Assembly (NCBI RefSeq): GCF_002104995.1
Contig: NW_024468265.1
Span: forward strand, 212,003 to 276,002
DNA length: 64,000 bases
Source of the DNA: Linderina pennispora
Taxonomy: Eukaryota > Kickxellomycota > Kickxellomycetes > Kickxellales > Kickxellaceae
Direction of reading: 5' to 3'
Part shown: positions 25,228 to 62,787 of the stretch, in pieces
Numbering within the stretch: the first letter of the stretch is position 1
How the letters are laid out: the number at the start of each line of letters is the position of its first letter
Position numbers and translations under genes: made by a program
Notes under the pieces: model-generated
The model's input: the letters and a program-made list of their open reading frames with translations, nothing else
Database searches by the model: none
What the model was told of the DNA's origin: nothing

Positions 25228-25230
25228 TGT

Positions 25231-25413: not shown

Positions 25414-25443
25414 GGCACATACACTCACTACGAAACGAATGTC

Positions 25444-25805: not shown

Positions 25806-25877
25806 ACCCTTTTCTTTTGCTGCCAGCCATTTTTAAATCCAGTTGTTCTTTTAACTCCAGGTTATTTTGATTCAGGA

Positions 25878-27536: not shown

Positions 27537-29052
27537 ATGCTATTTACTAGGGTCACGCTTGGCACTTGGCACTGTGCTTCTCCTGGCTACTGCAGTCACT
27601 GCCACGCCAGCTCACCAGCATGTTTTCAACCAGCACCATCACGGCGCCGCAGCATCTAAGGTATCTGGCCGTGTGGCTAACCCAGCGATGGTAGACATGA
27701 GCCAGTGGACAACAGTGTCCACAATGGATGCGATCCCCAACTATCGACTGCGCGTGAAGAACCCGGGTCTGTGTGATACCAGCGTCGAACCAGTACAGCG
27801 GGTATCTCGATACCGCGGAGGACAAGCACTTTTTCTTCTGGTTCTTTGAAGCACGCAAGGTCAAGCACGAAGATGCGCCGCTCATTCTGTGGCTCAACGG
27901 CGGCCCTGGGCTGCAGTTCGTTCACCGGTCTGCTGATGGAGCTTGGCCCGTGCCGTGTCAGTGAGGGTGGCAACGGCACAGACCACAATCCGTTTAGTTG
28001 GAATGATCGTGCGCACATCATCTTCCTTGACCAGCCCACCAATGTTGGCTTCTCATACTGGTTCAGACGTGTTCAGCTCTGTTGCGGCAGGAAGGGACGT
28101 CAATGCGTTGCTCCAACTGTTTTACAAGAGCTTCCCGCAGTATGCTAACAGCGAGCTCCATGTTTTCGGGGAGTCATACGGCGGCCACTATGTCCCGGCT
28201 GTGGGCAAGGCAATCCATGAGGCGAACAGGGAATTGGAGAGCAAGCGGTCGCTGAGCCTTCTTTCTGTGAGTGAAGAGGAACAGCGCATTTTGCCACTCG
28301 CTTCTATTGGTATTGGAAACGGAATTGTCAATCCGCTTGTCCAGTTCAAGTATTTCTCGACAATGGCGTGCAACTCGACCTATCCAGCCACGACTTCCCC
28401 AAGAGACCTGTGATAAGATGGATGCCGCCTATCCGACATGCGCCCGCCTTTTGCGCGAGTGCTACAGGATGGAATGATGTATCCAGGTGCGAGGACTGCG
28501 ACTAACTATTGCTATCCCTACTATCAAGGGGCCATACATGGATACCGGGAGAAATCCCTATGACGTGCGGCGCTACTGCGTCGGCAACGGGCTATGCTAC
28601 GAAATCGAGGACGACATTGACACCTATCTGAACAATGCTGGCGTGCAGAAGGCACTTGGTGCTGAAGTCAAGAAGTTTGAGTCGTGCTCGGAGAAGGTTG
28701 GAACTGGGTTTTCGCATGACGGTGATCATTCGAAGCCCTTCCACCAGTATATTCCCGCCCCTTCTTGCTGACAACATCCGTGTGCTTATCTACGCTGGGG
28801 ATGCTGACTTTACATGCAATTGGTATGGCAACAAGGCGTGGTCGATGGAGCTCGAGTGGCCAGAAAAGGAAGCATTCAATGGTGCCAGTGATGAGCTATG
28901 GTTGGTGGACTGGTGTGGGTGCTGGCGAGGTGCGCACCCATGAAAATTTCACTTTCCTGCGCGTGTTTGGTGCCGGACACATGGTTCCGTATGACAAGCC
29001 CAAGGAGTCTCTAGACATGATCAACCGCTGGCTCGACAGAAAGCCATATTGA
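27537..29052 (+). pseudogene. Serine carboxypeptidase 2, broken only by +1 shifts
   Basis: Close homologue of carboxypeptidase 1. Aligning the two shows ten places where one extra base changes frame, near 27558, 27790, 27910, 28059, 28393, 28469, 28503, 28530, 28757 and 28911, and no net deletion. The span is 1516 bp; minus ten it is 502 codons, close to the 495-residue neighbour. Signal peptide, [38 protein letters not shown] and the conserved C-terminus all survive, and I see no separate nonsense mutation. Annotated as a pseudogene because the literal sequence cannot encode one protein. Preserved motifs suggest either assembly insertions or a gene read with +1 shifts. Confidence 0.75.
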
Positions 29053-29308
29053 GCACTGAATGCCCATATTTATTACCATTTTACTCCAAGCAAGGAATAC
29101 GTGGTAGCAGGCCGCTATATGCTTGAATATGGTATGCTGGCTTCAGCAGAGTCTGGATAATAGGCTTTATGGAATAAAGCAGATGTGAAATGACTTGAAG
29201 TGAGAAAAGAGATATCTGGCCTCAATGTGGGCCGAAATGCATGTGTTTGGGCCTGTCCATTGTCATCCTGAACGAACGTCTCGTGACGTTCTGGAAACAT
29301 TAGTCGAA

Positions 29309-29363
29309 CAGCAGTGACTGCTGTTGGGAACCTTTCTGTATTAAAGACCAGCAGTCACTGCTG
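29309..29363. repeat. 15-bp inverted repeat, each arm itself near-palindromic
   Basis: CAGCAGTGACTGCTG at 29309-29323 and CAGCAGTCACTGCTG at 29349-29363, exact reverse complements with a 25-nt spacer. It lies between the 3' ends of two convergent genes (carboxypeptidase 2 and the multicopper oxidase). It could be a two-way 3'-end signal or a foldback remnant. The rest of 29053-29466 shows nothing else. Confidence 0.6.
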
Positions 29364-29466
29364 TGATGACTAAGGTGGCACAGGGACACATCGGCGCTTG
29401 GTGCCAACAGGTATAAAGTGCAGCTGTAGATGACTATCGGTTTTATTGGATTTAGCATTTACTGAA

Positions 29467-31325
29467 TTAGTGATCATTATCGTCGTCATCATCGCTATCA
29501 GCTTCGGAGTCTATATCATCAGCCGTCGTTTCCCTGGCTTTATCCAGTGTTGTGCTGTCAGTCCTGGTTGGTGATTTGCCTTCAGAAGTGCTTGTAGTAC
29601 TACCCGCTGCCTCGCTGTGGGATGCGTCCAAAGTTGCCGGCGGCGGTCCATCCTCATCACCCATTTGCAAAATATACGACAGCATCTGCCATCCAGCTGG
29701 TGGATCAATGCTTTCTACTTTGTCAGGCAGCGGATTCGGTCCTCCGGGCTGACCTTCCAGATCCATGCCGTCGCGGCCAATGGCATTGCCTGAAGCCTTG
29801 ATTCCTTGTGCAATGCAGTTCTCCTTGAGCCCCTCCGGCAAATGCGTGTTATTCTGCAGCAAACCCGGTGCTGTGACAAAGGTAAGCTCAAGGCCACGAA
29901 TTGCATGGTACTCAATATGGCAGTGAAATAGCCATGCTCCAGGATTGTTGGCGCGGAAGCGCAGAACAGCATAGTGGCCGCCACGCAGGATAAACGTGTC
30001 ACGCTTGACTGGGGCATCGCGAGCCAGCTTGGTGCGGTGTAAGCCTGACCGTAGTGCCCCAATTTCGACTATCTGGAACACATGCCCGTGCAGATGGAAT
30101 GGGTGCGTATAGTAGTCGTGGTTGTTCAATGTAATCTCCACCACATCACCCATATTCAGCACGTACGTGTTGGACTGGCGGCCGTATACTTCGCGCTTGT
30201 TAGCATTGTCGCCAGTGGACAGTGCTGTAAGCAAAGTAGGCACCTCGGGCAAAATGAATGTGACATTGTTGAACGAGTGGCGGAATGACTGATCGTCAAA
30301 TACGCCCGAGTAGGCATCGAGCGTTACTTGCACCGTGGGGTCCATTAATGCCTCCTCATCCAAAGGCTCGAGGTCCAAATCACTGGTAATTTTCCATCCG
30401 CCGTTGACTTCACGCTTGAGCGACGCTTTTGGTGCGTATTCTAGAACCCCGGTAAAGTTGAGAGGGTTGTATTTGGGCATGGTGAACAGGTCCGTGAACA
30501 TGTCGGCGTGGAACAAGTAGTTGTTGTCGGCTGTTTCCTTGGACCGCACAAGCACCGATACTCGTTGCCCCGCTGCCAGCATTACTCCCTTGGTTGGCTT
30601 CTCCTTGACCGGCACGCCATCGACCTCGATGATCCGCAGCTCATGGTCGTCGATACTAAAGTGAAATTCAAACGAGGCGCCAATGTTCAACAGCCGTAGC
30701 CTGTACGTCTTGTTCTTGACAAACTTGATCACCTTTGGCATTCAAACACTCGCCGCCAATGATGCCGTACGGGATCATCGGCTTATAGCGCACATTGGGA
30801 TCAGGACTTGAAAACTGCTTGATGATAGTGTTTGCCTGGCTCACGGAACCAATCGGACATGGGAAGGATAACATCTTCGTCGTACTTGTAGTAGTCATTT
30901 GGATCGCGCACGATTAAAGCAGTGCGTAAACCATCTGAAGTTTGCGCCTTGTAATGGCTGTGGATCCAGTACGTTCCGGCCTGTACCATCGGTATGCGAT
31001 ATGTGAATGTGCCATTAGGAGGAATAGAGCACTCGGTTACCATTGCAGCGCCATCGTAGTAGTTGGTGCCATTTTGGAACAGCCCATGCGAATGCAGAGA
31101 TGTGGGCTCGTCGAGCGAGTTGTGTGCGTGGATTATTAGTGTATCGCCCAAGGTCACCTCTACTGCGGGGAGTGGCCATTTGCCATTGACACCAATAGCC
31201 TTCCGACTAAACAGCCTACCAAAGCTAAAATCGATATAGCCGATATTCCAGTCCAGTACCACATCGGTTGCCTGGCACACAAGGAGCACCGGTGCGAGCA
31301 GTGGCAGAAGCACTTTCCAGCGCAT
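29467..31325 (-). CDS. Multicopper oxidase, Fet3-like ferroxidase, without membrane anchor
   Basis: About 618 residues if two +1 breaks (near 30830 and 30741) are bridged. Signal peptide MRWKVLLPLLAPVLLVCQAT. The four copper motifs are intact: HSHGLFQNG, WIHSHY, HPFHLHGHVFQIV and WLFHCHIEYH. The start TDVVLDWNIGY and YYDGAAMVTECSIPPNG are typical of Fet3-type ferroxidases. Yeast Fet3 has a C-terminal transmembrane helix; here the protein ends in a Ser/Thr then Asp-rich tail (DSEADSDDDDDNDH) with no hydrophobic segment, and no FTR1 permease lies nearby. A secreted ferroxidase or laccase is therefore likelier than a plasma-membrane iron-uptake subunit. Confidence 0.82.
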
Positions 31326-31928
31326 GATCGCGAGCTATTATAAAAAGGATGTAAAATGATGTTGAAGAGTGTGGGGAAAGAGGAATGCACCGGGGGGGTG
31401 CAGACAAAGGACATCCACGGTGATGTTGTCTACCTTTCCGAGTTTGTCCCGGTCCTTGCTCCGCCCTCAACTCCATCGGGCATACATGCAGGTGCCTGAT
31501 TTCAATAAATGCACGTCGTATATTAAACTGGCAAAGACATTATTGTGCATAGTGGTGGTAGTGGTGCGACATTACGTTCCTCCTGGGCAAAAGCACTATT
31601 CAAGCCTTACAGCGCGCTGGTCGACAGAAGGGGACGGCGGTTGTATAATGCATGGCCACCTGGGTGCAAAAGTCGTCGCCCAAAATGAAAAGCATGGCTT
31701 GGACAGGAGAGTGCCGTGATCATACGCCGTTGATTCTGGTAATCGCCAGCAGGTTTTTTTTTTTTCTGATCGCTTCTTTTTCAGAGGCAGTTAATGTTCT
31801 GCTCTTCGACTCTGTGCCAAATTTGCTTCCCTTATTCTCCTTCTTTCCTTTTCGCTGTACTCTTCATTCAGCACCTACAAACACTCTCACAAAACCCTAG
31901 TTCTGATCCACTATACAAAAGTGCGAGT
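31326..31928. other. Divergent promoter region, multicopper oxidase and RRP9
   Basis: About 600 bp between two divergent starts, with a T-tract at 31755-31766 and CT-rich leader before RRP9. No gene. Confidence 0.45.
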
Positions 31929-33623
31929 ATGGCAGGAGACCGGTTTCTTGCGAAAGGCGTGACGAGGACAAAGCGGCAGCGCAACGGGCGGCCAGTCAGC
32001 AAAGGAGCTACATCGACCGGGGCAAAGGCGCGTTCACGAAAGGCCACAAAGGGCTCCGACGAGTCGGGAAGCGACTCTGATGCCATCGGAGACATTGAGA
32101 GCCTGGAGCACCGGTATGGGCCGAACGAAGATGAGCTCTCCTCAGAAGACGAGGATGAGTTCTTAGAGACTGCAGCGGACAAGCGGCTGCGGCTGGCCAA
32201 GGAGTACATTGGCAAGGTGCGCACTGCCACCGAGCAGCACTCGGGGGAAATTGATGCGGCGCAGATTGATCGCGATCTGATTGCCGAGCGGTTGATGACC
32301 GACGCCAAGGAGCGCACGGGCAAGTGGAGCCGGCGGATTGCCGACCAGTTCCTGTATACGGTGGACAAAGAGTGCCTGACGGAGCTAAAGCAAGGCCTCC
32401 GGGGGGTAGTTACGTGCGCGGCAGTTACGCCAGACGGCAAGTTTGTGTTCAGCGGATCAAAGGACGGGTCGGTGATCAAGTGGGACGCACACAACGGCAA
32501 GCGTATCTGGACGGTCAAGGCGCAGCGCAAGCAGAAGGGTGGGCAGGCTGTGGCAGCAGAAGCGGGCAAAAAGAAGGCTGTGGGCCATTCCGACCATATT
32601 CTGTCGATTGCCATCAGCAGCGACGGGCAGTTTGTGGCCACGGGCGGGCGCGACCGCAAGATTAACGTATGGGCGGTGCGCGACTGCCGGCACTTGACAA
32701 CGTTCCATCAGCACAAGGACTGGGTGACGGGTCTGGTGTTCCGCCGTGGAACGAACCACCTGTACTCGTGCTCGGCCGACCGTATGGTGAAAATGTGGAA
32801 CATTGACGAGCTGGCGTACATGGACACACTGTTTGGCCACCAGGATTCGATCATCTCGATCTCTGCGCTGCAGCGCGAGCAGGCAGTCACTGTCGGCGGA
32901 CGCGACAAAACCGTGCGTCTCTGGCGCATCGCCGATGAGGCACAGCTTGTGTTCCGTGCCGGTTCGACTACAGACCAGCACCGCCTCACCAAGTCGCTGG
33001 CTGATTCTGCCAAAAGCGACGCGACCAGCGCCCTGGATCTGAACCAGGCAACACGTGGCGACATTGCGCGCCACGAGGATCTGCTGCGCGAGCTAGCTGG
33101 ACAGGAAGCCGAGTTGCACGAGGGCAGTGTTGACTGCGTGGCCATGGTCGACGAGGAGACATATGTGACGGGCGGGGACTCGGGCGCTCTCTCTCTGTGG
33201 AGCGTGCAAAAGAAGAAGCCGATCTTTGTCCAGCATGCTGCCCACGGCATGCAGGCTAACGCCGATGGCTCGCAGTCGACGCGTCCGCGCTGGATCACGG
33301 CTCTGGCCACAGTGCCATACACCGACCTGATCTTGTCGGCTTCCAGTGACGGATACATGCGCCTGTGGCGTATGCGCGATGGCAAGCTGCCGGGCTTTGA
33401 TCTGGTCAATGTGATCGAGGTCGGTGGCATTGTCAACAGCATCGACGTCAAGGAGATGAATGGCACCAACGGCGGCGACAGGGATGTGCTGGCAGCGAAG
33501 CGCGATCTGGTGGTTGTGGCTTCGGTAGGTCTGGAGCCAAGACTCGGCCGGTGGGCCAAGGGCACTGCGCGGAATGCAGTCAAAGTCTTCCGTCTGTTGG
33601 CAGCCAAGCCGCAGCACAAGTGA
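31929..33623 (+). CDS. RRP9: RRP9 / U3-55K, U3 snoRNP WD40 protein
   Basis: 564 residues from the ATG at 31929. The N-terminus is basic (TRTKRQRNGRPVSKG), then acidic, then ETAADKRLRLAKEYIGKV, a motif typical of RRP9 before the propeller. Six or seven WD40 repeats follow (DGSVIKWDAHNGKRIW, DRKINVWAVRD, DRMVKMWNID, DKTVRLWRI, GALSLWSVQ, DGYMRLWRMRD). RRP9 binds the box C/D motif of U3 snoRNA in the nucleolus and is needed for early 18S pre-rRNA cleavage. Intact, intronless. Convergent with the EST1-like gene, 92 bp apart. Confidence 0.92.
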   Translation: MAGDRFLAKGVTRTKRQRNGRPVSKGATSTGAKARSRKATKGSDESGSDSDAIGDIESLEHRYGPNEDELSSEDEDEFLETAADKRLRLAKEYIGKVRTATEQHSGEIDAAQIDRDLIAERLMTDAKERTGKWSRRIADQFLYTVDKECLTELKQGLRGVVTCAAVTPDGKFVFSGSKDGSVIKWDAHNGKRIWTVKAQRKQKGGQAVAAEAGKKKAVGHSDHILSIAISSDGQFVATGGRDRKINVWAVRDCRHLTTFHQHKDWVTGLVFRRGTNHLYSCSADRMVKMWNIDELAYMDTLFGHQDSIISISALQREQAVTVGGRDKTVRLWRIADEAQLVFRAGSTTDQHRLTKSLADSAKSDATSALDLNQATRGDIARHEDLLRELAGQEAELHEGSVDCVAMVDEETYVTGGDSGALSLWSVQKKKPIFVQHAAHGMQANADGSQSTRPRWITALATVPYTDLILSASSDGYMRLWRMRDGKLPGFDLVNVIEVGGIVNSIDVKEMNGTNGGDRDVLAAKRDLVVVASVGLEPRLGRWAKGTARNAVKVFRLLAAKPQHK

Positions 33624-33715
33624 GTTCTGGGTCATTTCCAAGCCGAGTACAGTTCCTGAGCCGTTTTGAATACAAAAAAGATTTATAGCTGTCAAAAAAG
33701 AATGCGCTACGGGTG

Positions 33716-36700
33716 TCAGCTCTGCGACGCCGCAGCAGCTCCAGACCCAGCGGCACGGGTAGCCGAGGCGCTGGGTGTGCTAGCCGCAGCAAAGTCAGCA
33801 GCCGACGCCTGCGAGCCCAGCATCGAGAAATGCATGGGTGAAAGCGGGGAAAGCTGCAGCAAAGTTGGGTGATGTGCACCACCAATCTCGGTGCCAACCC
33901 CGCGCCCCGGCGGATTGAACAGATTCAATGGCGGCTGTTGCTGCTGGCTCATCGGCTGCATCCATGGGTATATCCCGGAATTGCCTCCGGCCATAGCCTG
34001 CATGTACGCCTGCTGGTGCTGGCTGATGGAGGCAGCAATGGAGCCTGCTAACAACTGCTGCTGCTGGGGTGGCTGCTGCTGCTGCTGCTGCTGCTGCGAG
34101 AAAAAGTTGGAAGAGAAGCTGCGCGTCTGCTGCTTAGCTGGCTGTGATGTTTGTGACAATGCCATGCTGGCCACCGATACGGCTGTAGCATCGCCATCGT
34201 CCTCCTGGGTGCTGAGCTGACGGTCGCGCAGCTCCATGTGCTGGCGCAACTGTTGACGCAGCTGCTCATTATAGTGGGTTTGCTCCTGCAGCTTCTGCGC
34301 GTACTCTTGCCACTTCTCCAGCACGTTGTGGTCATCAGTACCATTATTTAATGGCTGCTGCTGATGCTGCGGGGAAAGGACAGAGGATGTGGTGCCAATC
34401 GCCGACTGACTAGCAGATGGCCGAAGTGCCGGGCTCCACATGCTGCTTGCGACCACCGTCTGCTGCTGGTGCTGCTGCGATGGAGCAACTGGTGAGCCCA
34501 GTAGGCTCTGGTGAGCAGACGAATTTGCGTAGGGTGAGGTCAACGAACTGCTGTGGCCCGCACCAGGCAAACCGTGCATGGAGGCTGACGGTATCATCGG
34601 TGGCATCATGGGCATGTCGAGCGCAGTCGGTGATCGGTACTGCGGGTGTGCTCTAGCAGCCTGCAATAGCCCGCCAATGCCAGCCATGGCCAGCTGCTCG
34701 TCGGCGCCAGCAATTCGGGACCCGCTGAAGGCCTCCGTTGTGCTGCTGCTGGCGCTGCTTGCAGTGGCAGGCACCCGCTGTGACCCGATCGCGTTTGGAA
34801 CACGCGGCTGTTGGCTGTGCTGCTGGCCCTGCTGCTGGCCCACAGCAGGCCGAATGACTTCGTCTCGCTCTGCATCCACCAGTGGCACATACGGCGTCGA
34901 ATTAACGGGTCGTTCAACGGGAGACCGCGTTAGCGTCCGAGCTAGCGGCGTCGTTTTTGCAGCAGTTTGCGAGCTGGCAGCCTGCTGGTACTGCTTCTGG
35001 TGCTTCTGATACTCCTTCCGCCGCTGCTGTATCCGCTGCTCCTGCTTCTGCTCTGGCGACAGTAGTCGACTAGGAGGCCGTGCTGGGAGTACAGGCCGCT
35101 TCTCCTCAATGACCTTTCTGTCCAGTGCTGTCTGAGGACGGCCGCGGAAGAACACGATCTCTTCCTCATCCTCCTCCATTGCGTTGTCAGCATCGTCGTC
35201 CGCAGAAGTGCTGTTGCCGACACCCTCCTCTTCTGTATCGACATCCATGTCATTCGAAACTACGCCTGATGGCATTTGGCTGCGGCTGTCGACAGTTCTT
35301 GCGGTCTGGACCATATCTGGAAGACACTCAGCAGCCAGTGCCAAGATGCAGTCCAGCTGCCACCAGCGCGAAAGCAGCGCCTTCTCCTCGGTTTTCTCGC
35401 TCAACAGCGCTGCATTTCCAATGTTGCTGATGTCCATCTCGGCGTATGAGGAGGGCACGCGGCCCCACACAGTTCCGTCTGGCATGGCCCACCCGGCTAG
35501 CATCCGGTCTTCTATCCGCTGACCACTGCAAGCGACGTGTTCGCCCCATAGCCGCACAGCCAGCGGCGCCATGGACCGGCACACAGAGCGCCACTGCAGG
35601 GGCTCAGGCGACTGCGACCGCCTATTGACTGTGTGGTGAACACTGGTCATAGTTCTCTTGAGCCACGATACTGTTTCTACAAACCGAGCGCGCTCGCATG
35701 CAGCAAACACTTCGGTGCGCAAACGCTGGATATGCGGGGAGTCCTGGTCCTTGGTCCGCTTGATGCGCACGGCCAACGAAACAAACATGACCAGTGACAC
35801 AATCAGCGGACCGATGACCCGGCGTGAGGGCTTTGTCAGCACCTCCTGCTCGCTTTTCAGCGTACGCCATGTCCGGCGGCTGTCGGCAATCGACCGCGAA
35901 ATCGCATGGCAGAATGATTCAGCCACACGGACAGCTAGATTGGCAGACTGGCGTACAATATTGAGCGGTGGCAGGTGCGACCCGTCGGCGATGTTTCCAA
36001 AGCACGTCAGGCGTTGCAGCTCCAGCAGATGCACGATCTGAACCATCATCACCTGCTCACCGTCCAAACTGCCCGTCCCGGTTGCTTTGGCAGCCCTGAC
36101 AAACTTCTCGACAGCATTGTCTACACGGGCTGCAATCGATCCGACATGCTCCTTTGTCGGCATAGCCTCGCGCATGACGCTGGTTCCCATGTCGCTAGGG
36201 CTCTTTGTCGACGGCTGGTACTGCGCCAGATGGTACCTGAGCATGGTGAAGTTCGGGTATATCTGGCTATCCGCAAACCAGTGGGCGTTGGGCGGGCGGT
36301 CAGGAATTGGCGGCACGTTGGCCGATAATAGCCGCTGTGCATTGTCCAGCATGCCACGCATGTTGGATTCGGAGGCAATAAACCGGCTGTGCGCTGTCGT
36401 TGCCCTGTAGTAGCCAAATATAGTCGACAAATAGTCCTTGTCGTGTCCGTAGATCACTGCCAGCTGGTTATGTGGCTGGCCACGGTGCGGTGCCAGCTTG
36501 ATAGCGCCCTGATAAAATTTTTTCGCAGCCCACCACATGTCCCGCTGCTGTTGCTGCTCGGCTTCGCTGTTAGCCGCTGTGCGCGCTGCCATCACCGCCG
36601 TTTGCTTGCGACTAGTATACATGACGCGGTACCGCGACAGGTCACCAAGGTACACCAGGCACTGCGCAATGATGGCTACGGCAGACTTGCGCGGCAGCGA

Positions 36701-37381
36701 CAGGGCGCCCCGGGCCTCTGCGTGCAGAGCATCTACAAACTCGTACCCGTAGGCATGGGTAGCCAGGGCTCGGTAGTCGATGGCAAACTGGGAGGTGTTT
36801 ATCAGCTCGCCAGTAACCACCAGCTCGTGTTGCTCGGCCAGCTCAACCACCAGCATGAGCAAGAACCCTGCCATCTCCTGCAGGAATGTGCGCAGCCTTC
36901 CACGAATCTCCGACGCCTGTTTCCTCACTACTGCCAACGTCTCTTCCGACTCGCGCATGAGCTGCGGGCGCGGGCGCCTGTTCTGGGACGCTGCCTTCTT
37001 CTTCTCCTCGGCGCACAGCCTCTCGCGCTCGGGCGTCCATGACAGCCTGCCATCAAGCCCTTTGAGCTCGACCCGATAGTGGTCAATCACGCGATAGATC
37101 AGCACGAACCACAGCTTGCCGATAAGATCCTTGCGGTTCGACGAGTACGGATTACGCACAATTAGTCGGCGGAACAGGTCGCGGCACTGCCCGCGCTGGC
37201 TCTCGAGCGACGGGCTAAAAAAGTCCTTTCCACCGTCGCGCTTTCCCGTGGTCTCTATCTGCTCCGTCAGCTGCTTGATTGCCTGGAACAGCTGGGCCGT
37301 GCTCTCGGGATTCGACGTCTCCCAGTTCATCGCATTATCCACACCGGCCATTCTTGATCTCCTTTTGGTAGTCCTAGCCAT
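33716..37381 (-). CDS. EST1/EBS1/SMG7-like protein
   Basis: 1221 residues, intact. The N-terminal part matches the EST1 14-3-3-like/TPR region: FFSPSLESQRGQCRDLFRRL, GDLSRYRVMYTSRKQ and ARKFYQGAI-like AAKKFYQGAIKLAPHRGQPHNQLAVI. This last region leads into the EST1 DNA/RNA-binding domain (YYRATTAHSRFIASESN). The middle carries an acidic stretch (EEDEEEIVFF) and a possible coiled coil (EQKQEQRIQQRRKEYQKHQ). The C-terminal ~350 residues are Gln/Ser/Pro-rich with a poly-Gln run (34062-34095). Family members act in telomerase recruitment or nonsense-mediated mRNA decay; the sequence alone does not say which. Confidence 0.87.
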   Translation of the reverse strand: MARTTKRRSRMAGVDNAMNWETSNPESTAQLFQAIKQLTEQIETTGKRDGGKDFFSPSLESQRGQCRDLFRRLIVRNPYSSNRKDLIGKLWFVLIYRVIDHYRVELKGLDGRLSWTPERERLCAEEKKKAASQNRRPRPQLMRESEETLAVVRKQASEIRGRLRTFLQEMAGFLLMLVVELAEQHELVVTGELINTSQFAIDYRALATHAYGYEFVDALHAEARGALSLPRKSAVAIIAQCLVYLGDLSRYRVMYTSRKQTAVMAARTAANSEAEQQQQRDMWWAAKKFYQGAIKLAPHRGQPHNQLAVIYGHDKDYLSTIFGYYRATTAHSRFIASESNMRGMLDNAQRLLSANVPPIPDRPPNAHWFADSQIYPNFTMLRYHLAQYQPSTKSPSDMGTSVMREAMPTKEHVGSIAARVDNAVEKFVRAAKATGTGSLDGEQVMMVQIVHLLELQRLTCFGNIADGSHLPPLNIVRQSANLAVRVAESFCHAISRSIADSRRTWRTLKSEQEVLTKPSRRVIGPLIVSLVMFVSLAVRIKRTKDQDSPHIQRLRTEVFAACERARFVETVSWLKRTMTSVHHTVNRRSQSPEPLQWRSVCRSMAPLAVRLWGEHVACSGQRIEDRMLAGWAMPDGTVWGRVPSSYAEMDISNIGNAALLSEKTEEKALLSRWWQLDCILALAAECLPDMVQTARTVDSRSQMPSGVVSNDMDVDTEEEGVGNSTSADDDADNAMEEDEEEIVFFRGRPQTALDRKVIEEKRPVLPARPPSRLLSPEQKQEQRIQQRRKEYQKHQKQYQQAASSQTAAKTTPLARTLTRSPVERPVNSTPYVPLVDAERDEVIRPAVGQQQGQQHSQQPRVPNAIGSQRVPATASSASSSTTEAFSGSRIAGADEQLAMAGIGGLLQAARAHPQYRSPTALDMPMMPPMIPSASMHGLPGAGHSSSLTSPYANSSAHQSLLGSPVAPSQQHQQQTVVASSMWSPALRPSASQSAIGTTSSVLSPQHQQQPLNNGTDDHNVLEKWQEYAQKLQEQTHYNEQLRQQLRQHMELRDRQLSTQEDDGDATAVSVASMALSQTSQPAKQQTRSFSSNFFSQQQQQQQQPPQQQQLLAGSIAASISQHQQAYMQAMAGGNSGIYPWMQPMSQQQQPPLNLFNPPGRGVGTEIGGAHHPTLLQLSPLSPMHFSMLGSQASAADFAAASTPSASATRAAGSGAAAASQS

Positions 37382-43740: not shown

Positions 43741-43788
43741 TTATCGATCTTGCAAATAGAATAAGGGATGCTGAGATGGGAATGCCTG

Positions 43789-43798
43789 CTTTATAAAG
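43789..43798 (-). promoter_or_regulatory. TATA box of the P-type ATPase
   Basis: Palindromic CTTTATAAAG about 50 bp upstream of the ATG at 43740. Confidence 0.45.
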
Positions 43799-47376: not shown

Positions 47377-47394
47377 GAATAAAAGTCTATAGCT

Positions 47395-47994: not shown

Positions 47995-48223
47995 AATAGT
48001 AGCAAAAATAGGTGTGTCTAGAAGGTGCTTGCAAAAAGAGCTTATTACAAGAGGATGTGGGTTTCAGGAAAAGGAGAGGAACACAGCAAGTCCTATTAGT
48101 AATGCAGTTTGAACTTGCTGAAATCGGTGTGGACACCATAAACCCCGTGAGATCCCTCGATTGGTCAAAGAATTGAATGCGAAAAAAAAAGTGCTGGCAA
48201 CCCAGACTCGCCTTTCATTGCCC

Positions 48224-48895: not shown

Positions 48896-48917
48896 CAGAT
48901 TCTATTGAATAAAGGCA

Positions 48918-50593: not shown

Positions 50594-50641
50594 GCGAATT
50601 AGATTGATATTAGCTGAGCTGGAAAAGGTATTATAGACTAT

Positions 50642-52075: not shown

Positions 52076-52154
52076 TATTACGCCTCGACAAGCAATAGCT
52101 ACGAGATAAGACCTGAATGGGAGGGGTGGGAAAGTGACAAAAGTCTAGAGGTGT

Positions 52155-52207
52155 GGTGTATAAAAGCTGGGGGAGACAGAGCGCTGCCACCCGCTTTTAT
52201 ACACCAG
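52155..52207. promoter_or_regulatory. Inverted pair of TATA boxes
   Basis: TGGTGTATAAAAGC at 52155-52168 and its exact reverse complement at 52194-52207, 25 bp apart. The minus-strand box is about 120 bp upstream of transporter copy 2. The plus-strand box faces the gene-free region to the right. Confidence 0.5.
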
Positions 52208-53502: not shown

Positions 53503-53509
53503 ATATAAC
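53503..53509 (+). promoter_or_regulatory. TATA box of the proline-rich secreted protein
   Basis: TATATAA-type box about 105 bp upstream of the ATG at 53611. Confidence 0.45.
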
Positions 53510-53610
53510 GGCTTTAACCCTCCTTTGCCAGCAGCAGGCTCACTAGCATCCACATCACTCTCAACAGCTTTAACGCCACACGCACGATCACGAACATCCA
53601 CTCCGCAATC

Positions 53611-53969
53611 ATGAAGTTTTACAGCTGCCTGCTGGCCCTCATTTTAATCCTTTGCTTTCTCCGTGCTTTCAGCACCAGTTGCACAGGCACCTGGTCCGAT
53701 AGCTGGCATGCCGGGCATGCCCAAAGATAGGTGGTGGCGCTCCTCACCCGAATCCCGGTGCACCGCACCCCCCGGCTCCAGCCCCAGCTCCAGCTTCGGC
53801 TCAGGCAAGACCTCAAGCTCCGGCTCCGGCTCCACCTGCCAGCGATGGATCTGTTATTCCGCTACCCGGGCCTGGAGAAACTCTCTTCGGCTACCTTGAT
53901 CGCCTGCTCAAGAACCTGCCATTCATTGGCAACTTGCTGCCTATGCTGGGTGTAGCGCGGTCCAAGTAA
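53611..53969 (+). CDS. Small secreted proline-rich protein (two +1 breaks)
   Basis: Not a family I know. Reading through +1 breaks at 53662 and 53729 gives 118 residues: a signal peptide (MKFYSCLLALILILCFL then VLSAPVAQA), a Gly/Met/Pro stretch (GPIAGMPGMPKD), a Pro/Ala-rich linker, and a hydrophobic C-terminus (LDRLLKNLPFIGNLLPMLG). Codon bias is consistent only along this path. The literal first frame stops after about 36 residues. May be a small effector-like or cell-wall peptide. Confidence 0.55.
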
Positions 53970-54426
53970 CAACCGGCATTTCATGACTGTTTCCAACAAT
54001 GAATTCTTTTTACTTTCGAACCATGAAGATGAATGGGGCATTGTTGCCTCCAGCACTATGCCAAGCAGTATAGCAGCAATGTGGCTCTTGGCCTACTGAA
54101 CATACTATTAGAATCCCTGCTAGCGTTTTCTGGTTTCTTGTCTGAATTCGGGGGAGGGAGCCATCTCTATTCGTGCTGGTGTTTCGTTTCGCACTGTAGA
54201 CGAAAGAGGGACTGCTGGACCATTATCTGGAATCTAGTAGAGTGCTGGATGGTTCGGCTGCCATGCAATGCCTGCGCAGCAAAAATGGCCGTTAGCTGAC
54301 AATGAAACGGCTACTATCTGGTGTCGAAGAACACAAGCCGACGAGCACACCGTTCATTCTGCACACCAATGAAAGGATCGCAGCTTCCAATTTGCATCTC
54401 CTCTTGCGCACACTGGTCCAACGGTC
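53970..54426. other. Intergenic between small secreted-protein genes
   Basis: No gene seen; ends at a TATA box of the next gene. Confidence 0.4.
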
Positions 54427-54433
54427 TATATAA
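54427..54433 (+). promoter_or_regulatory. TATA box of the PKPEYH-repeat protein
   Basis: TATATAA about 100 bp upstream of the ATG at 54530. Confidence 0.5.
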
Positions 54434-54529
54434 CTACCTCTGCATCAGCGACCTCCTCGACTCACACATCACCTTCACACAGAACCGCAAGCACATTTCC
54501 AACACCTACCCCGCTACCACCCTATCACG

Positions 54530-55550
54530 ATGCACGTTTATACCACCACCATCCTTGCCTTGATTACTCTTGCAACAGCCCAGCAGGTTGGCTTCGCCAG
54601 TGATGCCTCGGTCGTCGCTGGCCCGAATGCGATCGACTCGACCAACATCAACAATGGCTGGCAAGCAGATGGCTCGTTTTTCACCTCAGGCGGCTCTGGA
54701 AGTGGCTCGACATTCAGCAACATCGCCAACTCGCATTTCAGCGACATAAACTCCAACTCAGTCAACGAGCACAACATCGCTAACAACCCGAGCTCTAACT
54801 CTGTTGCTGGCAACAGTGGATGGACTGCCAATGGCAACGGCAATGCCCTCGGTGCTGTGCAAAACCAGTTTGCTGGAATTGCCTCCCCGTTCTTCAGACG
54901 TGACGGAGCCTACCATGCAGCTGCAGCCCCTGCTGGAGAGTACAAGGCACCAGGCCATTTCGTGGGCAGCCCACCTCCTCCTCCCCATGTTGCCCCTGCG
55001 TCTTACGCTGCGCACCCGGTTGTTCCTGTGGTCCAGATTCCAGTGGTACCAGTAGTTCCGGTTCATTATGTAGCCCCTCCTGTTGCCCCTGCCCCTGCCC
55101 CCCAAACCCGAATATCATGCTCCTGCTCCTGTTCCAGCCCCCAAGCCCGAGTATCATGTACCGGTTGCCCCTGCTCCCGCTCCTAAGCCTGAGTATCACG
55201 CTCCTGCTCCTGCCCCCAAACCCGAGTATCACGCTCCTGTTCCTGTTCCTGTTCCTGCTCCCAAGCCTGAGTATCATGCTCCTGCTCCTGTTCCTGTTCC
55301 TGCTCCCAAGCCCGAGTATCATGCTCCTGTTCCTGTTCCTGTTCCTGCTCCCAAGCCTGAGTATCACGCTCCTGCTCCTGCTCCTGCTCCTGTCCCCAAG
55401 CCTGAGTATCACGCTCCTGTTCCTGTTCCTGTTCCTGCTCCCAAGCCCGAGTATCATGCACCGGTTGCGCCCGCTCCCGCTCCTAAGCCTGAGTATCATG
55501 CGCCGGTCGCTCCTGCTCCTGCTCCTAAGCCTGAGTACCACGCGTACTAA
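54530..55550 (+). CDS. Secreted protein with NSNSVN domain and eleven PKPEYH repeats
   Basis: 339 residues if one +1 break in a C-run (55098-55103) is bridged. Signal peptide MHVYTTTILALITLATA. Residues about 20-125 are Asn/Ser/Gly-rich with NAIDSTNINNG, INSNSVNEHNI and NPSSNSVAGNSGWTA, homologous to the 56204-56860 protein. Then a His/Pro/Val linker, then eleven copies of PKPEYHAP spaced by Val/Ala-Pro stretches. The repeat region is highly regular at DNA level (about 45 bp units). Such Tyr/Pro/His repeats suit a structural wall or extracellular matrix protein, possibly cross-linked through Tyr by the nearby tyrosinases (speculative). Confidence 0.75.
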
Positions 55551-56061
55551 ACCAATTCGATGTTACAGCCCTGATCAACAGGCTCATGGATCTCTTCTTG
55601 CCTGTGCTATATCGGGAATATAGTGATTACAATTTTCGCCCCTTTTATTCGTTATGAACATGGGTATATTGCGAATGAAAGTAGCAGCTAATAGTCAGTC
55701 TGAAAGCATATATGGCGTGGCTTCAACTAATGTGGCGGTGTTGCATCGACTGCTGCCTACAATAAAACAGGCAACAGCCCTGATTGTCATCTGAGAGCTC
55801 TTCTATGCGCCACCACGGACCAGAGTACTGCCTTCGATGAATGCGATCTATGATATCTTGTCCACTGCCAGCACCCTAGAGCATGGGGGCGCAGTCATAT
55901 GGACGCCACCCAGCGTCATGACATGCTATATGTGAACGACAATATAATCACCATTGTTCGTCGGTGTATTCAGATTGTTTTTTGTTTGCGATGTTTACAA
56001 AATTCTCCAATGGCTAACGCCAGAGGCAAAGGAAACTTGACAGCAGCTAGGAAGACAAATG
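55551..56061. other. Intergenic between the two NSNSVN-domain genes
   Basis: No gene; TATAAAG at 56062 belongs to the next gene. Confidence 0.4.
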
Positions 56062-56203
56062 GTATAAAGCTACCCTGCCAACACACGCTCCACCAAGTAG
56101 CATCAAGTCAACCTTGTAGACCAGTTTTTGTCCCGCACTTAGCACTGCCCCCGCCTTAACTTCCCCGTAGCCCCTAACCTCCTTTCCAATCACAGAGTCG
56201 GCC

Positions 56204-56860
56204 ATGCGCACCTTCATTCTCGCTCCTATCCTCACCGCACTTGCCATTGCGTCTCCTGTCCACAGGCGCCAGCAGGTCGGTTCGGCACAGGGAGATGCTA
56301 TCGACACTGGTGCAAATGCCATCAGCTCGCCCAACATAAACGAGGGCACTCAGGTCGAGGACTCCATCATCGACAATAGCTCCGATGCTGGCAGCACCTC
56401 GGCTGGAAACTTTGGCACCTCTGTTACCAAGGTAAACTCGAACAGCGTGAACAAGGGCAATATCGTTGTCAACCCGTCGACGACTACCACCTCGGGCAAC
56501 ACCGGGACGACAGTTGACGGATTTGGGAACCAGGTTGGCGACGACTTTGGTATCCTGCCATTCATCAGTGACTTCCTTGCCAAGCGTTCTGTTGTGGAGC
56601 GTGCACTTGCTAAGCGCAGTATCGTGGACCGTGCACTTGCTAAGCGCGGTATCGTGGAGCGTGCACCCGTCAGGCGCAGTGCCATCTTTGCTTCGCCGGA
56701 CTTTGTGGATCCGTTTGACTTGGGGTACTTCCCTGGGCAGTACCTGCCGGCCGGATTCCCCGTCGATGTCCCTGTTGCCTTGCCTGTCGGCTTCACTGTT
56801 GCCCCGGGCTCCAGCCATAACCAGGTTCAGAATGCAGGAATTGTCCAGAACCAAGCCTAA
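56204..56860 (+). CDS. Secreted NSNSVN-domain protein with Kex2-type repeats
   Basis: 218 residues. Signal peptide MRTFILAPILTALAIASPV, then HRRQQVGSAQG. The N-terminal ~100 residues match the preceding gene (NAISSPNINEG, VNSNSVNKGNI, NTGTTVDGFGN). Next come three tandem ten-residue units, each ending in a dibasic site: SVVERALAKR, SIVDRALAKR and GIVERAPVRR. The tail (ATFASPDF-like, AGFPVDVPVALPVGF) is hydrophobic and Pro/Val-rich. The unit layout is that of a kexin-processed precursor, so short peptides may be released in the Golgi. Intact frame. TATAAAG about 140 bp upstream. Confidence 0.75.
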   Translation: MRTFILAPILTALAIASPVHRRQQVGSAQGDAIDTGANAISSPNINEGTQVEDSIIDNSSDAGSTSAGNFGTSVTKVNSNSVNKGNIVVNPSTTTTSGNTGTTVDGFGNQVGDDFGILPFISDFLAKRSVVERALAKRSIVDRALAKRGIVERAPVRRSAIFASPDFVDPFDLGYFPGQYLPAGFPVDVPVALPVGFTVAPGSSHNQVQNAGIVQNQA

Positions 56861-57152
56861 GCCCACCACAGCATCTCCCAGAACCCATCTTAAAATATAA
56901 TAACACTCCCATGTTGCACGGCCCACGCCACATTGGACGAAAATGCGGCTGCTGGTACCAAAGTCCATGGAGCGGCATTGCAAGCCAGCGTGTACTGTTG
57001 ATCGCAGCAGCAGCCACATTTATTTGGTCTGCATGGCATTCGCGCCCTTACTCCCGTCGTACTATTCTATAAAAACCCGTTCTGGCCAACAGTCAAGGTC
57101 GACGGGACCTCCATCCTCGGCTTTGGCTCTCATCCAACCTCACTGAAAAAAA

Positions 57153-58091
57153 ATGGCAGCAATTCCAACAGTCGAAACCGGTGTTCCTGGTGATCATATC
57201 AAGACTCCACGCATTGGTTTGGAATGCATGCCACTGAGCGGCACCTATGGATCAGTAGTTGATGCCGAATCACTCCAACTGCTCGGCCATGCACACAAGG
57301 CAGGCTGCACCCTGTGGGACACCACCGATCTCTATGGTTTTGGCCACGAGTTCACAGTACCAGAACTGGGCGCAGACGTATCATTCAGCTCTCAGATCAC
57401 AGGCATCCGTGGTGGCCTTGAGTATGTGCGTACCTCCATCGAGGGCAGCCTTAAGCGCCTCGGTGTAGACAGAATCGGCCTCTACTACCAGCACCGCGTC
57501 GACCCAAATACACCTATTGAAAAAAAACAGTGGCTGTGATGGCAGAGCTGGTCAAGGAGGGCAAAGTGCGCTACCTCGGACTGTCCGAGTGCAGTGCCGA
57601 CACTCTGCGTCGCGCCTACAAAGTCCACCCAATTGCTGCTGTGCAGATAGAGTACAGCCCGTAGACTATCGATATTGAGTCCAATGGCATGCTAGATGCG
57701 TGCCATGAACTTTGTGTCACTGTGGTTGCATTCTCTCCGCTGGGGACGCGGCATCGAGGATATCCCTGCAAACGACTTCCGCAGAGGACGTCCGCGTTGG
57801 ACACCCAAGAACTTTGCCCACAACATCCAGCTAGTTGACGCTTTTGGCCGCATGGCCAGGCAAAAGGGCTGCACGCTTGGCCAGCCTACACTTGCCTGGC
57901 TGTTGGTCCAAGAGAAGAACATGGCTCTGATCCCAGGTACCCGGCGTGACGCCAGATTTGACGAAAACTTTGCTGCTCTTCAGGTGCATATCGCTGGCGA
58001 AGAGAATAAGCAAACCCGCAACCTGTTGAACAGGGCAGGCATCCAGGGGCAACGGTACCCGGCTGAATTTATGAGCAGGGTCGGGCTGTAA
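57153..58091 (+). pseudogene. Decayed aldo-keto reductase, copy 1
   Basis: Clearly homologous to the intact copy at 58605-59637, nearly identical over [20 protein letters not shown] and [20 protein letters not shown]. Lesions: eight A instead of six at 57520-57527, an extra base near 57746, a W-to-stop TAG at 57662, and in-frame deletions of about 24 residues after LYGFG and 8 residues after SPLGRG. The catalytic Tyr region survives but part of the cofactor-binding barrel is missing. A TATA box (TATAAAA, about 57069) is kept. Confidence 0.8.
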
Positions 58092-58504
58092 ATTCATCAA
58101 GCGTCTCGTCACGTTAGTCTTCAAAAAATGTATATTGAGCGGTACCTTGCTAGAAGAACAGTTGTTGCAAGTGTCTCACACTGCTCATGGTGGAACCAAG
58201 AGCTGTTCGCTTCAAGCGGCAGAACTCACCAGTGCTACACAATGGCAGTCGGAAGATACTGTGACCGCAGCACACCCTTAAATGCTGACGGTGATAGGAT
58301 GTGCTTTTTGAGCCTATTCCGACGATTCTCCGATACTCCACCGAAATCGATACCTGCTCTGGTGTCGCCTTTTCCACAGGAGTCCGCTGACTAATTCAGT
58401 AGCTGCCGCAAAAAGCTAAGCAGGCTAGTAATACTGGTTAAAACTGGTTTACATACCGCAGTGGTGACGCAAGCTACGGCTATGCGTTGCCAAGAAATCC
58501 GCCT
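58092..58504. other. Intergenic between aldo-keto reductase copies
   Basis: No gene seen. Confidence 0.4.
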
Positions 58505-58505
58505 T

Positions 58506-58512
58506 GGTATAA
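58506..58512 (+). promoter_or_regulatory. TATA box of aldo-keto reductase copy 2
   Basis: TATAAAA about 95 bp upstream of the ATG at 58605. Confidence 0.5.
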
Positions 58513-58604
58513 AATCCCCTCAGAAATCGTCAGGATGCCCTAGATCGCTGCAGTATTAACGGACCCAATCCCCTCAACCAGTGCCCAAGCAACCTACCTC
58601 GACC

Positions 58605-59637
58605 ATGTCTATCGTTCCCACCATCGAATTTGGTGTTCCCTGGCGACAAGATCCGTGTGCCTAGGATCGGCTACGGAGCAATGACTGTAACCCCTGTGTA
58701 CGGTCCAGTTGACAATGACGAAGCGCTTCGCACCCTGAAGCGCACCATTGAGCTTGGGTCGACCTTTTGGGACACTGCCGATTTATATGGTTTCGGCAGC
58801 AGCGAGCGCTTTTTGTCCGAAGAACTGAAAAGGAACCGCAACGGGATCTTTATCTGCACCAAGTTTGGCAATGCATACCGTATGCCTGAGCCCGGATTCA
58901 AGGGCAACTTTGCTTCGTTAATCACAGGAATTCGCGGAGACCCTGAGTATGTGCGTGCCTCCGTTGAAGGCAGCCTTGAGCGCCTCGGTGTAGACAGAAT
59001 CGACCTCTACTACCAGCACCGCGTCGACCCAAATACACCTATTGAAAAAACAGTGGCTGCGATGGCAGAGCTGGTCAAGGAGGGCAAAGTGCGCTACCTC
59101 GGACTGTCCGAGTGCAGTGCCGACACTCTGCGTCGCGCCTACAAAGTCCACCCAATTGCTGCTGTGCAGATGGAGTACAGCCCGTGGACTATCGACATTG
59201 AAACAAACGGTCTGCTGGATGCGTGCCGTGAGCTTGGCGTGACTCTTGTAGCGTATTCGCCTCTGGGCCGTGGCTTCTTGACCGGACAAATTCGCAAGTT
59301 CGAAGACCTTCCTGAGCGCGACTGGCGCCGCACCAACCCGCGGTTCCAGCCCGAGAACTTTGCCCACAACATCAAGCTTGTCGAGGGCTTCGAGCGCATC
59401 GCGGCAAAAAAGGGTGTCAAGCCAGGACAGCTTGCACTTGCATGGCTCCTGGCTCAAGTGGACAACCTCATTGTGATTCCTGGAACCAAGCGCGTCAAAT
59501 ACCTTGAGGAGAATGTCGCTGCTGCCCAAATCAAGCTTACCGAGGAGGAAATTGAAGAGATCCGTGAGCTGGTTGACAAGGCCAACGTCAAGGGGGAGAG
59601 ATACGACGAAGTACAAATGAAGCTTGTTGACGCATGA
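58605..59637 (+). CDS. Aldo-keto reductase, AKR13-like, copy 2
   Basis: NADPH-dependent (beta/alpha)8 oxidoreductase. The true start is the ATG at 58605 (MSIVPTIEFGV); one +1 break in the C-run at 58638-58640 separates it from PGDKIRVPRIGYGAM, as shown by the homologous start of copy 1. About 343 residues. Catalytic set: Asp and Tyr in FWDTADLYGFGSSE, Lys in FICTKFG, His in [16 protein letters not shown]; cofactor motif IPGTKRVKYLEEN. Family members reduce aldehydes such as pyridoxal; substrate unknown. The tandem arrangement with a dead copy shows recent duplication. Confidence 0.85.
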
Positions 59638-61429
59638 ATAGAATAAAACTATATCTCTGCACATAAACTATAACTTATCGGTAGTGACTGGCATGGTTGA
59701 TTCATTACGGCAACACTGGATATGCTAATAGAATACTACACACGTGGTGGTGTTGGAAAGGCGACCTAAGGATATGCCCAGCAGAAGATGGCTGCATATG
59801 CAAAAGTGATTGCATCATTAGGAATAGTCATGGAGGTGATCATAGTTGAAACAACGGTTGCACTGGACGGTGTGTAGTGTGCATTGACAACAACATGTCG
59901 AAGAAACTGTACCCATGCGGCGCGGGCAGAACGCAGATCGTCTCGGGTAGACATATCGGTGGGCTGTGTAGGTCTGATCAGGTTCACACAATTCCAACAA
60001 CCTTATATTCACACATGCTGCATGCTATTCCTGAATGAATGCCCTGTGTGATTGGCATGTGCATCTTTGTAGAAAGACTGGCTGCGAACCATGATCCCTC
60101 CACACCATGTTCGGCGCTGCACAGACTGCCAGGATATTTAGTAGACCAGGACCAGCAGCCTGCTCCGTGTTAGCAGTGAGCACAAGACGTGCGCCATTGG
60201 CTGTAGGTGATGTAACAGGCAGATCTGGAGAAACGAGAGAGCTGCATAAATTTATTCCCAAAAAATACATGCTGCTCCACGTAGTAGCAGGAGTATCTGC
60301 CAGAAATGAACAGCAGTGTGTATGCATCTCTCGAGTCCAGGTGTGGTATAAAAAAAAGCTTGGTTCGCATTCGGCATACACTTCCACACGGAGCAGTAAG
60401 TGCTTTTGCCTTGTGGTAATGCATGTAAACCAAGCACTGGCCCGTTAGTTGTCTATAGCAGGAGAGCCGTGTTTCAAATAATCAAATCAATATTTTTGAA
60501 TGATTGTCATCTCAACTACAAGCATCCTTCCAATGAGTGCCAATGATGCGCACGCTCGGATACTCGGATGGGTCTGCATCATGTACTCAGATATGGAAAC
60601 AAAACTAAGACAATGTAACGATTTGTAGAGCCAGGTGTGCTCAACGCTTGAAAAAGCGAACCGGCCTGTTAGAATGGACGCTGGGATTTGCATGGGGAAA
60701 ATACTCCGTAGCTGGTTGCTTCAAGTTGGAAAGATCCATTCATTGAATTGTACATGACTCGCAATTCATGTTTAACCGCAATCAGACCACGTAGAAAGCA
60801 AATCTGGAACAGGTGCTGGCAACGCATATTTATGCATGCGCGGAGATCAACAAAAGTTGCAGTCGCAGCCACTGCTGGCACATCGCCATCTTCAACAATG
60901 ATGTGCTAGCTTGGGAGCTTCTTCCATATACTAAAAGCTATGATGCCCTATGCCGAGTACGTGCAGCCGGCATAGTTTCTGCCCATCTAGACCAGCATAC
61001 CCTGCTATTCTTGGATCTGTGCCGCTGTGGTTTACACAACGAAGCCAGCTTTGTTCTTGACTGGCAAATCGGCTCTGAGTTAAATCGTCGGAAAAACACA
61101 TACGTTACAAACGAAGAACATGCTGTATCTTTCGATTCCAGGTCGCATTGCCGACTTGCATGCAGTCTTTGCAGAAGGGAGAGGCGGAAAATTGCGTAGT
61201 GTGCAATATTCACAAATGTGGCAACTGGCAAGAGTCGTGTATATAAACCCAGGCACTGCCTCGCTGCGTCTGCTCTCAACCACAAGCACATATCACAACT
61301 ATCTTCTTTCCAATTCCTTACCAGTTCTACTAATTTGGATCCTGTATCTTCCACCTTTTCTAACGATTAAACTCTTCCTCAGGCCCCAGCATTGGTCACA
61401 CTGACGACTACACCTCACCGTAACTCAAG
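59638..61429. other. Intergenic, 1.8 kb
   Basis: No gene I can support. A TATA-like TATAAAAAAAA at 60350 has no ORF behind it. TATATAAA at 61240 precedes the peptide gene by about 190 bp, with a CT-rich leader. Confidence 0.45.
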
Positions 61430-61627
61430 ATGAACCATCCTCTTACATCGCTTCTCGTGCTCATGGCGCTTCAGCTGGTCGTTGTAAGCGCTGCCCCCGT
61501 TCCGTCCAATGCCAATGCAAGCACAAGCAAACTAGGGAATCCCTCCCATTCTGAGTGGGCGGGTGCTTTGGACACTTCAGCCCTGTCAAAGCGCGGCTGG
61601 GATTACTTTGGAGTCTACAGAGGCTAA
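61430..61627 (+). CDS. 65-aa secreted peptide precursor with Kex2 site
   Basis: Signal peptide MNHPLTSLLVLMALQLVVVSAA, a Ser/Asn/Ala-rich spacer, then SALSKR followed by GWDYFGVYRG and the stop. The Lys-Arg followed by a ten-residue aromatic/Gly peptide at the extreme C-terminus is the layout of a kexin-processed peptide hormone or pheromone, or of a fungal RiPP core. A TATA box and CT-rich leader upstream support expression. No homologue known to me. No RiPP enzymes or pheromone receptor lie in the window. Confidence 0.6.
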   Translation: MNHPLTSLLVLMALQLVVVSAAPVPSNANASTSKLGNPSHSEWAGALDTSALSKRGWDYFGVYRG

Positions 61628-61874
61628 TGGTCTGCACTCTGCCAGTTCATGATCGCTACTACAGCAACCCCCTAAAAACTACCCTCATTCAACCTTCCTT
61701 TATACTCGTCGATACTTTTGTATATAAATAATTTCTTGCAGTCCGAAACACACCACAGTTACAATTGCAAAGGCTTGCATTGCGAGCAACGAAAGTCTGG
61801 TGGGTGATATTAATTCAGCAACATAAAATATAGAAACGACATAAAACGACATAAAACGATTAGGGGACACTGAC

Positions 61875-62787
61875 TTACTTGAACATGCTGTTTGTCTCCC
61901 AGTCAGTGTTGATTTCGTTGTCAGGAGATGCCATGTCGAGTGGGTCAATAGTCCGCAGTTCTTGCGTTATCGAGTTCTTGACTAGCTCGTCCAGCTCCTT
62001 TGTGACAACGGAAATCATCTTTTTGAAGCGGCTGTCAATCTTGGCAATGTTGTCGAAGGCTTGCTGGGTGATGGTGATGGCCATTAGTGAGTCGGCCAGC
62101 TTTGTGTACATGATAACTGTGATCTGACAGAACGTGTCAAACACCTGCAAAAAGTCCAGGTCGAATGGCTACAGCGCAAACCAGTATATAGAGAAAGCTT
62201 GAGTGATTCTGAAATGTTTTCGAATATTGAAAGACCGTGTTGAGGTACTGCGTACACTTACCGGCTGATGTGTATCAAGGTATGAGAAATTGCCAGCCTC
62301 ATAGCTGGCCTGCAATGCCGATGCATGCTCGTCCGAATTGCGCGACTTTCTGAAGAACGTCCTCTTTTTGCTTTTGCTGACAGTTTCGGACATGTACGCG
62401 TCGTATTCGTTAATGAGAATGCCCAGCGCTTTGATGTAGTCTGACGGATTGGAAATGGCCAGGATGGGTCCCAGGCTGGCGCCAAGCATAAAGTATGCCC
62501 GTGTCCGTTTGCGCAGTCTGATGCTGTTGAACATACCGCGCATGTCGTCAGGGTCAAACAGTAGCGTGTTGAAGTATGCCCGCCGCCTTGACGCTTTATT
62601 GGCATTGGCACGCGCTGTCAGCGTGCTGCCTGAAGGAACTTCCTGTGCGTCGTTAACAGTATCGCCTGCCTAGGTCAATTTCCAGCGGTAGAGCCATTGA
62701 ATTGCGTAGATGCCGGAACGTAACAATGCGCTTACTGATTAGCTCGCGAATACTGAGCTCCCAAACATTGCCGGCGACTGAGCCCAT
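61875..62787 (-). CDS. Conserved fungal hypothetical protein, one intron, damaged N-terminus
   Basis: Two exons: 62787-62262 and 62168-61875, with a 93 bp intron (donor GTAAGT, acceptor GTAG). The join gives DTHQP-PFDLDFLQVFDTFC. About 270 residues, mostly helical: MGSVAGNVWELSIRELISKR, then after a gap DDMRGMFNSIRLRKRTRAYF, SDYIKALGILINEYD and IAKIDSRFKKMISVVTKELD. I believe related proteins occur in many fungi without assigned function. One +1 break near 62700 (HLRN to QWLYRWKLT) is followed by an in-frame TAG (about 62672), so the literal sequence is interrupted. The 3' end could also continue, since AAGTAAGT at 61875 resembles a donor. Confidence 0.6.

Follow-up and report, generated by a model that had tools for sequence, protein, structure and literature searches.

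Changes of reading frame by a single base have been described in very different settings. Programmed +1 ribosomal frameshifting is known from the yeast Ty elements, EST3, ABP140 and antizyme, and it needs an extra base in the genome together with a shift signal. Insertions and deletions (indels) in homopolymers, on the other hand, are a known error of long-read consensus sequences. The system that most resembles the one described here is the early FALCON assembly of PacBio data (Korlach et al. 2017, PMC5632298), in which only divergent haplotypes were separated, the merging of similar ones introduced indels at some of the nucleotides that differed between them, and phasing prevents the effect. 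The passage of that paper on which we draw states this briefly, with data not shown.

In this work we follow up a dense cluster of frame breaks in Linderina pennispora. The window is a stretch of 64,000 nucleotides (nt), the terminal 64 kb of the 276,002-base contig C79 (C79:212003-276002) in an assembly of 222 contigs and 26,172,285 bases; coordinates are those of the window unless a contig name or C79 is given. The original prediction counted about 37 breaks in twelve window genes, all of them +1, and considered residual insertion errors of long reads the leading explanation. We conclude, with a probability of about 0.92, that the breaks are merged-haplotype consensus errors of the genome assembly, and the real genes are probably intact. 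Three observations carry this conclusion: at 27.4-29 kb the extra bases are doubled alleles, they are absent from a near-identical contig, and breaks along C79 are linked to the lack of a second contig. The artefact is thus of a known kind, and its cause is more specific than random long-read error: the extra bases do stem from the assembly, as was predicted, while the cause given for them does not fit the nine of ten that mark polymorphisms with both alleles kept.

The evidence is clearest where the same locus is found on three contigs. The stretch 25959-31632 is common to the window and C129, running to the end of C129 (42 substitutions, 40 gap openings), and 25904-29093 is common to the window and C147, running to the end of C147 (2 substitutions, 21 single-base gaps). 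All 21 of these single-base gaps are an extra base in the window and none in C147; with a different aligner the window had 22 extra bases and C147 one. As there are only 2 substitutions over 3.2 kb, C147 is nearly the haplotype of the window, minus the extra bases. C129 and C147 differ from one another by 41 single-nucleotide polymorphisms (SNPs) in 3,128 aligned columns. Ten extra bases of the window are missing from both of these contigs, and at nine of the ten the bases of C129 and C147 differ from each other, both of them being printed side by side in the window (27442, 27446, 27549, 27787, 28392, 28467, 28515, 28751 and 28910). The first two are upstream of the carboxypeptidase 2 gene and the other seven inside it. 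A randomly inserted base would mimic a doubled allele with a probability of 0.0066 at each site, which gives 2e-19 for at least nine of ten. Two of the five non-homopolymer examples listed in the original prediction, GAC-T-GGT near 28910 and AGG-A-TGG near 28467, are among the nine. The extra bases at 28058 and 28493 in carboxypeptidase 2 are common to the window and C129, and position 28115 is represented by one base in the window, by two in C129 and by none in C147.

The consequences for the reading frame follow the contigs. Breaks were called by frameshift-aware alignment of DNA to protein, with +1 and −1 priced equally. For carboxypeptidase 2 (27537-29052, plus strand) the reference is an intact paralogue on C212, which together with its counterpart on C124 forms an allelic pair that is 98% identical and gap-free. 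Against it the copy on C79 has nine +1 breaks and no −1, that on C129 five +1 and no −1, and that on C147 no +1 and five −1; a gene neighbouring carboxypeptidase 2 on C147 has two −1 breaks. Approximately ten +1 breaks had been claimed for this gene, so the sign was right and the number is nine. In the adjoining Fet3-like gene (29467-31325, minus strand) the window has two bases that C129 lacks (30734 and 30835), C129 has extra bases of its own at 29527, 29846 and 30042, and the break positions therefore differ between C79 and C129; at 31165-31166 there is a two-base difference, where the frame of the window is open. The two breaks that had been predicted here are borne out, their +1 sign resting on the coding model and the C129 comparison rather than on a protein alignment, and the name Fet3-like is taken over from the prediction rather than from a family test. 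The sign and position of a break are a property of the contig, not of the gene.

Breaks were also called with a codon model, which was run at several penalties and uses no reference protein. Since two close +1 breaks mimic one −1, this model is ambiguous, and reference proteins are needed; as sole evidence the scan was rejected for the same reason. It found five +1 and five −1 in the window at a strict penalty, and to the right of 25.5 kb 11 +1 and 6 −1 at a middle penalty, rising to 15 +1 and 10 −1 when the penalty was lax. A uniform +1 sign for all breaks is not confirmed, as there are −1 breaks on C147 and a minority of −1 calls on C79, some of which are two close +1.

The density of codon-model breaks along C79 depends on whether the other haplotype is found on a second contig. 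There are 38 breaks per 46,965 coding nt where no second contig was found and 2 per 25,070 where there is one, a tenfold contrast (p 9e-6). The first figure is made up of C79:162003 to 210555, with 30 breaks (21 +1, 9 −1) in 28,814 coding nt, and of C79 after 243635, with 8 breaks (4 +1, 4 −1) in 18,151; the second of the part under C190, with none in 11,023, and of C79:110001-132500 under C216, with 2 in 14,047. Within the window, 1-15951 is phased, with the other haplotype on C190 and no break at the model penalty used. Positions 9000-15951 are 97.6% identical to C190 (115 substitutions), and because C190 ends at the equivalent of C79:210555, colinearity with C79:210555-212002 means that 1-8999 should be covered too. 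All coding sequence in 1-25900 is free of break events at this penalty, and a laxer one gives one +1 and one −1 to the left of 25.5 kb. The clean left side that had been predicted is thus real for coding sequence, and it fits a merging of haplotypes further to the right, because C190 holds the other haplotype; it does not extend to the AT-rich 18.9-25.9 kb, which has 45 gaps relative to C147. Substitutions in the three phased comparisons amount to 1.6 to 2.0%, and in four comparisons the share of transitions among SNPs is 81% (of 456), 83% (of 115), 68% (of 31) and 90% (of 42). In these stretches the sequenced strain has the behaviour of a heterozygous genome with two haplotypes.

We propose the following mechanism. 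Where the haplotypes were assembled on separate contigs, C79 is nearly clean. Where one contig took up the reads of both haplotypes, and likewise towards the ends of second-haplotype contigs, the consensus failed to choose between the alleles of some SNPs. Both bases are then printed in a row, which adds one base and shifts the frame by +1. A long-read consensus caller of the early FALCON type could produce this outcome if it represented a mismatch by an insertion paired with a deletion and kept both bases. The locus described here displays the adjacent-allele, +1 form of the effect at base level. Homopolymer errors of the familiar sort are represented too, in that the single-base steps on C147 and at the end of C216 are mostly in runs, but these have no tie to SNPs, and on C147 their sign is opposite to that of the window breaks. 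The resemblance to Ty, EST3, ABP140 and antizyme is confined to the +1 shift, as a near-identical copy of the present locus lacks the extra base.

How far does the same cause extend? Across eight window genes, all to the right of about 27.5 kb, protein alignments and contig comparison give 27 +1 breaks and one net −1, so that the original count is borne out in part; the aminotransferase, proline-rich, PKPEYH and hypothetical genes lie outside this tally. The P-type cation ATPase (40167-43740, minus strand), for which about six +1 had been suggested, has four, near 40250, 40281, 43079 and 43407, and a net −1 near 43540 that may instead be two +1. The three +1 breaks of the MCH1-like MFS transporter (45799-47376, plus strand), near 45828, 45852 and 46041, agree with the prediction and were located with an L. 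pennispora EC988 protein (residue identity 292/300). Protein alignment likewise bears out the two and three +1 breaks of the two ACS-type transporters, MFS transporter 1 (48921-50419, minus strand; near 49306 and 49300) and MFS transporter 2 (50645-52075, minus strand; near 51902, 51892 and 51220). The EC988 protein and, for MFS transporter 1, a protein of L. macrospora span the break sites. For the aldo/keto reductase (AKR) genes three and one breaks had been proposed. Copy 1 (57153-58091, plus strand) does have three +1 breaks relative to copy 2, two of them in one A run, and in addition it contains an in-frame stop and lacks about 30 residues; it looks like a decaying gene and is possibly a true pseudogene. 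The single +1 of copy 2 (58605-59637, plus strand), near 58636, was called against its own typed reading, a reference that is not independent and whose only backing is the parallel open start of copy 1. The predicted clean frames of two further genes stand: the WD40 protein (31794-33620, plus strand), which the prediction named RRP9, and the EST1-domain protein (33716-37381, minus strand) have no frame break.

Direct tests for a second haplotype contig found none for 43200-49300 and 52500-57000 of the window or for C79:192003-196002, and the stretch 43200-57000 is a putative merged-haplotype stretch, the second contig being absent where directly tested. In these genes the doubling of alleles can be looked for only by its signature. 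We considered 16 +1 sites from the MCH1-like gene, the P-ATPase, both MFS transporters and both AKR copies, with the net −1 of the P-ATPase left out. At 12 of the 16 a pair of unlike neighbouring bases is present of which either can be deleted with the same best score (null 0.44, p 0.012); at 8 of the 16 such a pair is a transition (null 0.22, p 0.013). The nulls come from 4,000 simulated random insertions, and simulated base duplications give similar values (0.43 and, for transitions, 0.23). Nine carboxypeptidase 2 sites, which are separate from the 16, have eight equal-scoring pairs and six transition pairs. The signature gives modest support in genes without a second contig, and we infer the same cause at 31.6-62.8 kb by leaning on the result at 27.4-29 kb.

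Several observations weigh against this interpretation. Allele doubling does not explain a few of the breaks: the tenth extra base, at 27908, which lies in a homopolymer with no SNP between C129 and C147; those in the A run of AKR copy 1; and, in the P-ATPase, the net −1 near 43,540. It is very unlikely that these breaks are truly genomic and read through by tolerated frameshifting. When all 21 extra bases relative to C147 are taken together, the transition test is modest (17, null 0.565, p 0.018), and in 18911-25903 the bias to extra bases is absent, 27 of the gaps being in the window and 18 in C147. The ties at the 16 sites may be inflated, because the references were exact for the null and diverged for the data. 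A full-length second copy might be hidden elsewhere in the assembly, because queries of at least 10 kb missed even their self match. The WD40 gene, the EST1-domain gene and the core of the P-ATPase (approximately 8 kb) are unbroken without a second contig, so patchy heterozygosity is needed. Finally, the density contrast was obtained with five parts of C79 left out. Two are contig-end zones, that of C129 and C147 (237901-243634; 9 events in 4,471 nt) and that of C216 (132501-135301; 5 in 1,740), and both are break-dense despite being covered by a second contig. The others are 135302-140000, beyond C216 (4 events in 2,774 nt), and C79:1-20000 (2 in 10,202) and 50001-60000 (4 in 4,661), whose second-contig status was unchecked.

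The end of C216 also counts against allele doubling as a complete account. C216 itself has 11 events (8 −1, 3 +1) in 23,039 coding nt, and all but one of these fall in its first 1.4 kb or its last 4.6 kb; the C190 piece has one event in 5,300. Homopolymer steps account for most of the gaps at the C216 end, which means that plain indel errors occur as well, and transition pairs are near chance, at 9/17 where C79 has the extra base and 6/8 where C216 has it (nulls 0.55). With two contigs only, alleles are not separable there from homopolymer steps. Among 30 single-base gaps between C79 and C216, an assignment that leaves out five longer gaps has 17 undecided, 6 as +1 on C79, 4 as +1 on C216 and 3 as −1 on C216. 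In C79:132501-135000 SNPs go down to 17 per 2.5 kb, from 28 to 90 in the preceding nine pieces, and single-base gaps go up to 23. We also considered the bases missing from C147 as calls of neither allele; this was dropped as the main account, most of them being homopolymer steps. Errors linked to N6-methyladenine were considered as a further possible source.

The alternative that survives best is that random residual insertion errors of long reads accumulated independently of heterozygosity where coverage was low at the end of a contig. The window does terminate at a contig end, homopolymer extras such as 27908 and the A run of AKR copy 1 exist, and the homopolymer steps and near-chance transition pairs at the C216 end are of the expected type. 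However, random error cannot place nine of ten extra bases on SNPs in such a way that both alleles are preserved, and the breaks run through C79:162360-207363, far from the contig end, ceasing before the coverage by C190 begins at 210555. For the 27.4-29 kb stretch random insertion is refuted, and overall we regard it as unlikely. True pseudogene decay near a chromosome end is more improbable still. The contig does end in a dispersed repeat, and the stop and missing residues that AKR copy 1 has beside its +1 steps are what decay would leave; yet the aligned coding stretches of carboxypeptidase 2, the MCH1-like gene and both MFS transporters are free of in-frame stops when the shifts of frame are followed, and the sole stop of the P-ATPase is inside a segment that aligns as an insertion and is probably intronic. 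Programmed or tolerated +1 frameshifting in clustered genes, the alternative in the original prediction and one for which the near-uniform +1 sign in the window speaks, can practically be dismissed, as the extra bases are absent from the near-identical C147, which is itself broken by −1 at other places, C129 also lacks them at the ten window-only sites, the pair of allelic paralogues on C212 and C124 is unbroken, the breaks follow contig structure and the first inspection saw no common shift site, no motif search having been made in the follow-up.

The +1 breaks are likely to be a map of heterozygous sites, in a strain that is likely strongly heterozygous with two haplotypes. Single-cell sequencing found three of four Zoopagomycota not to be haploid (PMC6784888), which fits the two-haplotype genome proposed here; Linderina is not among the ploidy tests in the portion of that paper on which we draw. 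L. pennispora was included in a methylation comparison, the corresponding portion of which carries no statement on ploidy (PMC8298701). A striking but false case of clustered frameshifting is removed by these results, and they suggest a test for other genomes: extra bases that pair alternative alleles, and that are rarer under a second haplotype contig, point to merged SNPs. Public gene models of L. pennispora may be damaged in the same way. For example, the public P-ATPase protein DL89DRAFT_270391 omits stretches that are encoded in the DNA near the break sites and that relatives keep.

The window has a number of other features. The two AKR copies are, by eye, near-identical over approximately 230 bases (57450-57680 and 58960-59190), a hint of gene conversion. 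Between carboxypeptidase 2 and the Fet3-like gene there is a short element at 29259-29375, with matches of 90-117 bases that are 98-99% identical on C146, C195, C158 and C189, and with shorter inverted matches; C129 lacks many bases at the same place. The dispersed repeat at the contig terminus (63378-64000) is approximately 620 bases long and has at least 39 copies at 91-93% identity. The stretch 16000-25800 is AT-rich (31-39% GC, in a part of the genome with approximately 55% GC) and multi-copy, and its repeats are common to C201, C112, C35, C158, C165, C135, C194 and C1. It hosts a 409-amino-acid frame at 20180-21409 that matches DDE transposase families, next to a 547-amino-acid frame without a Pfam match. 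Further to the left, two adjacent minus-strand DUF4097 proteins are encoded at 7324-10662, with DUF7330 above the cut-off only in the first, and a tyrosinase-domain protein at 5222-7018 adjoins this pair.

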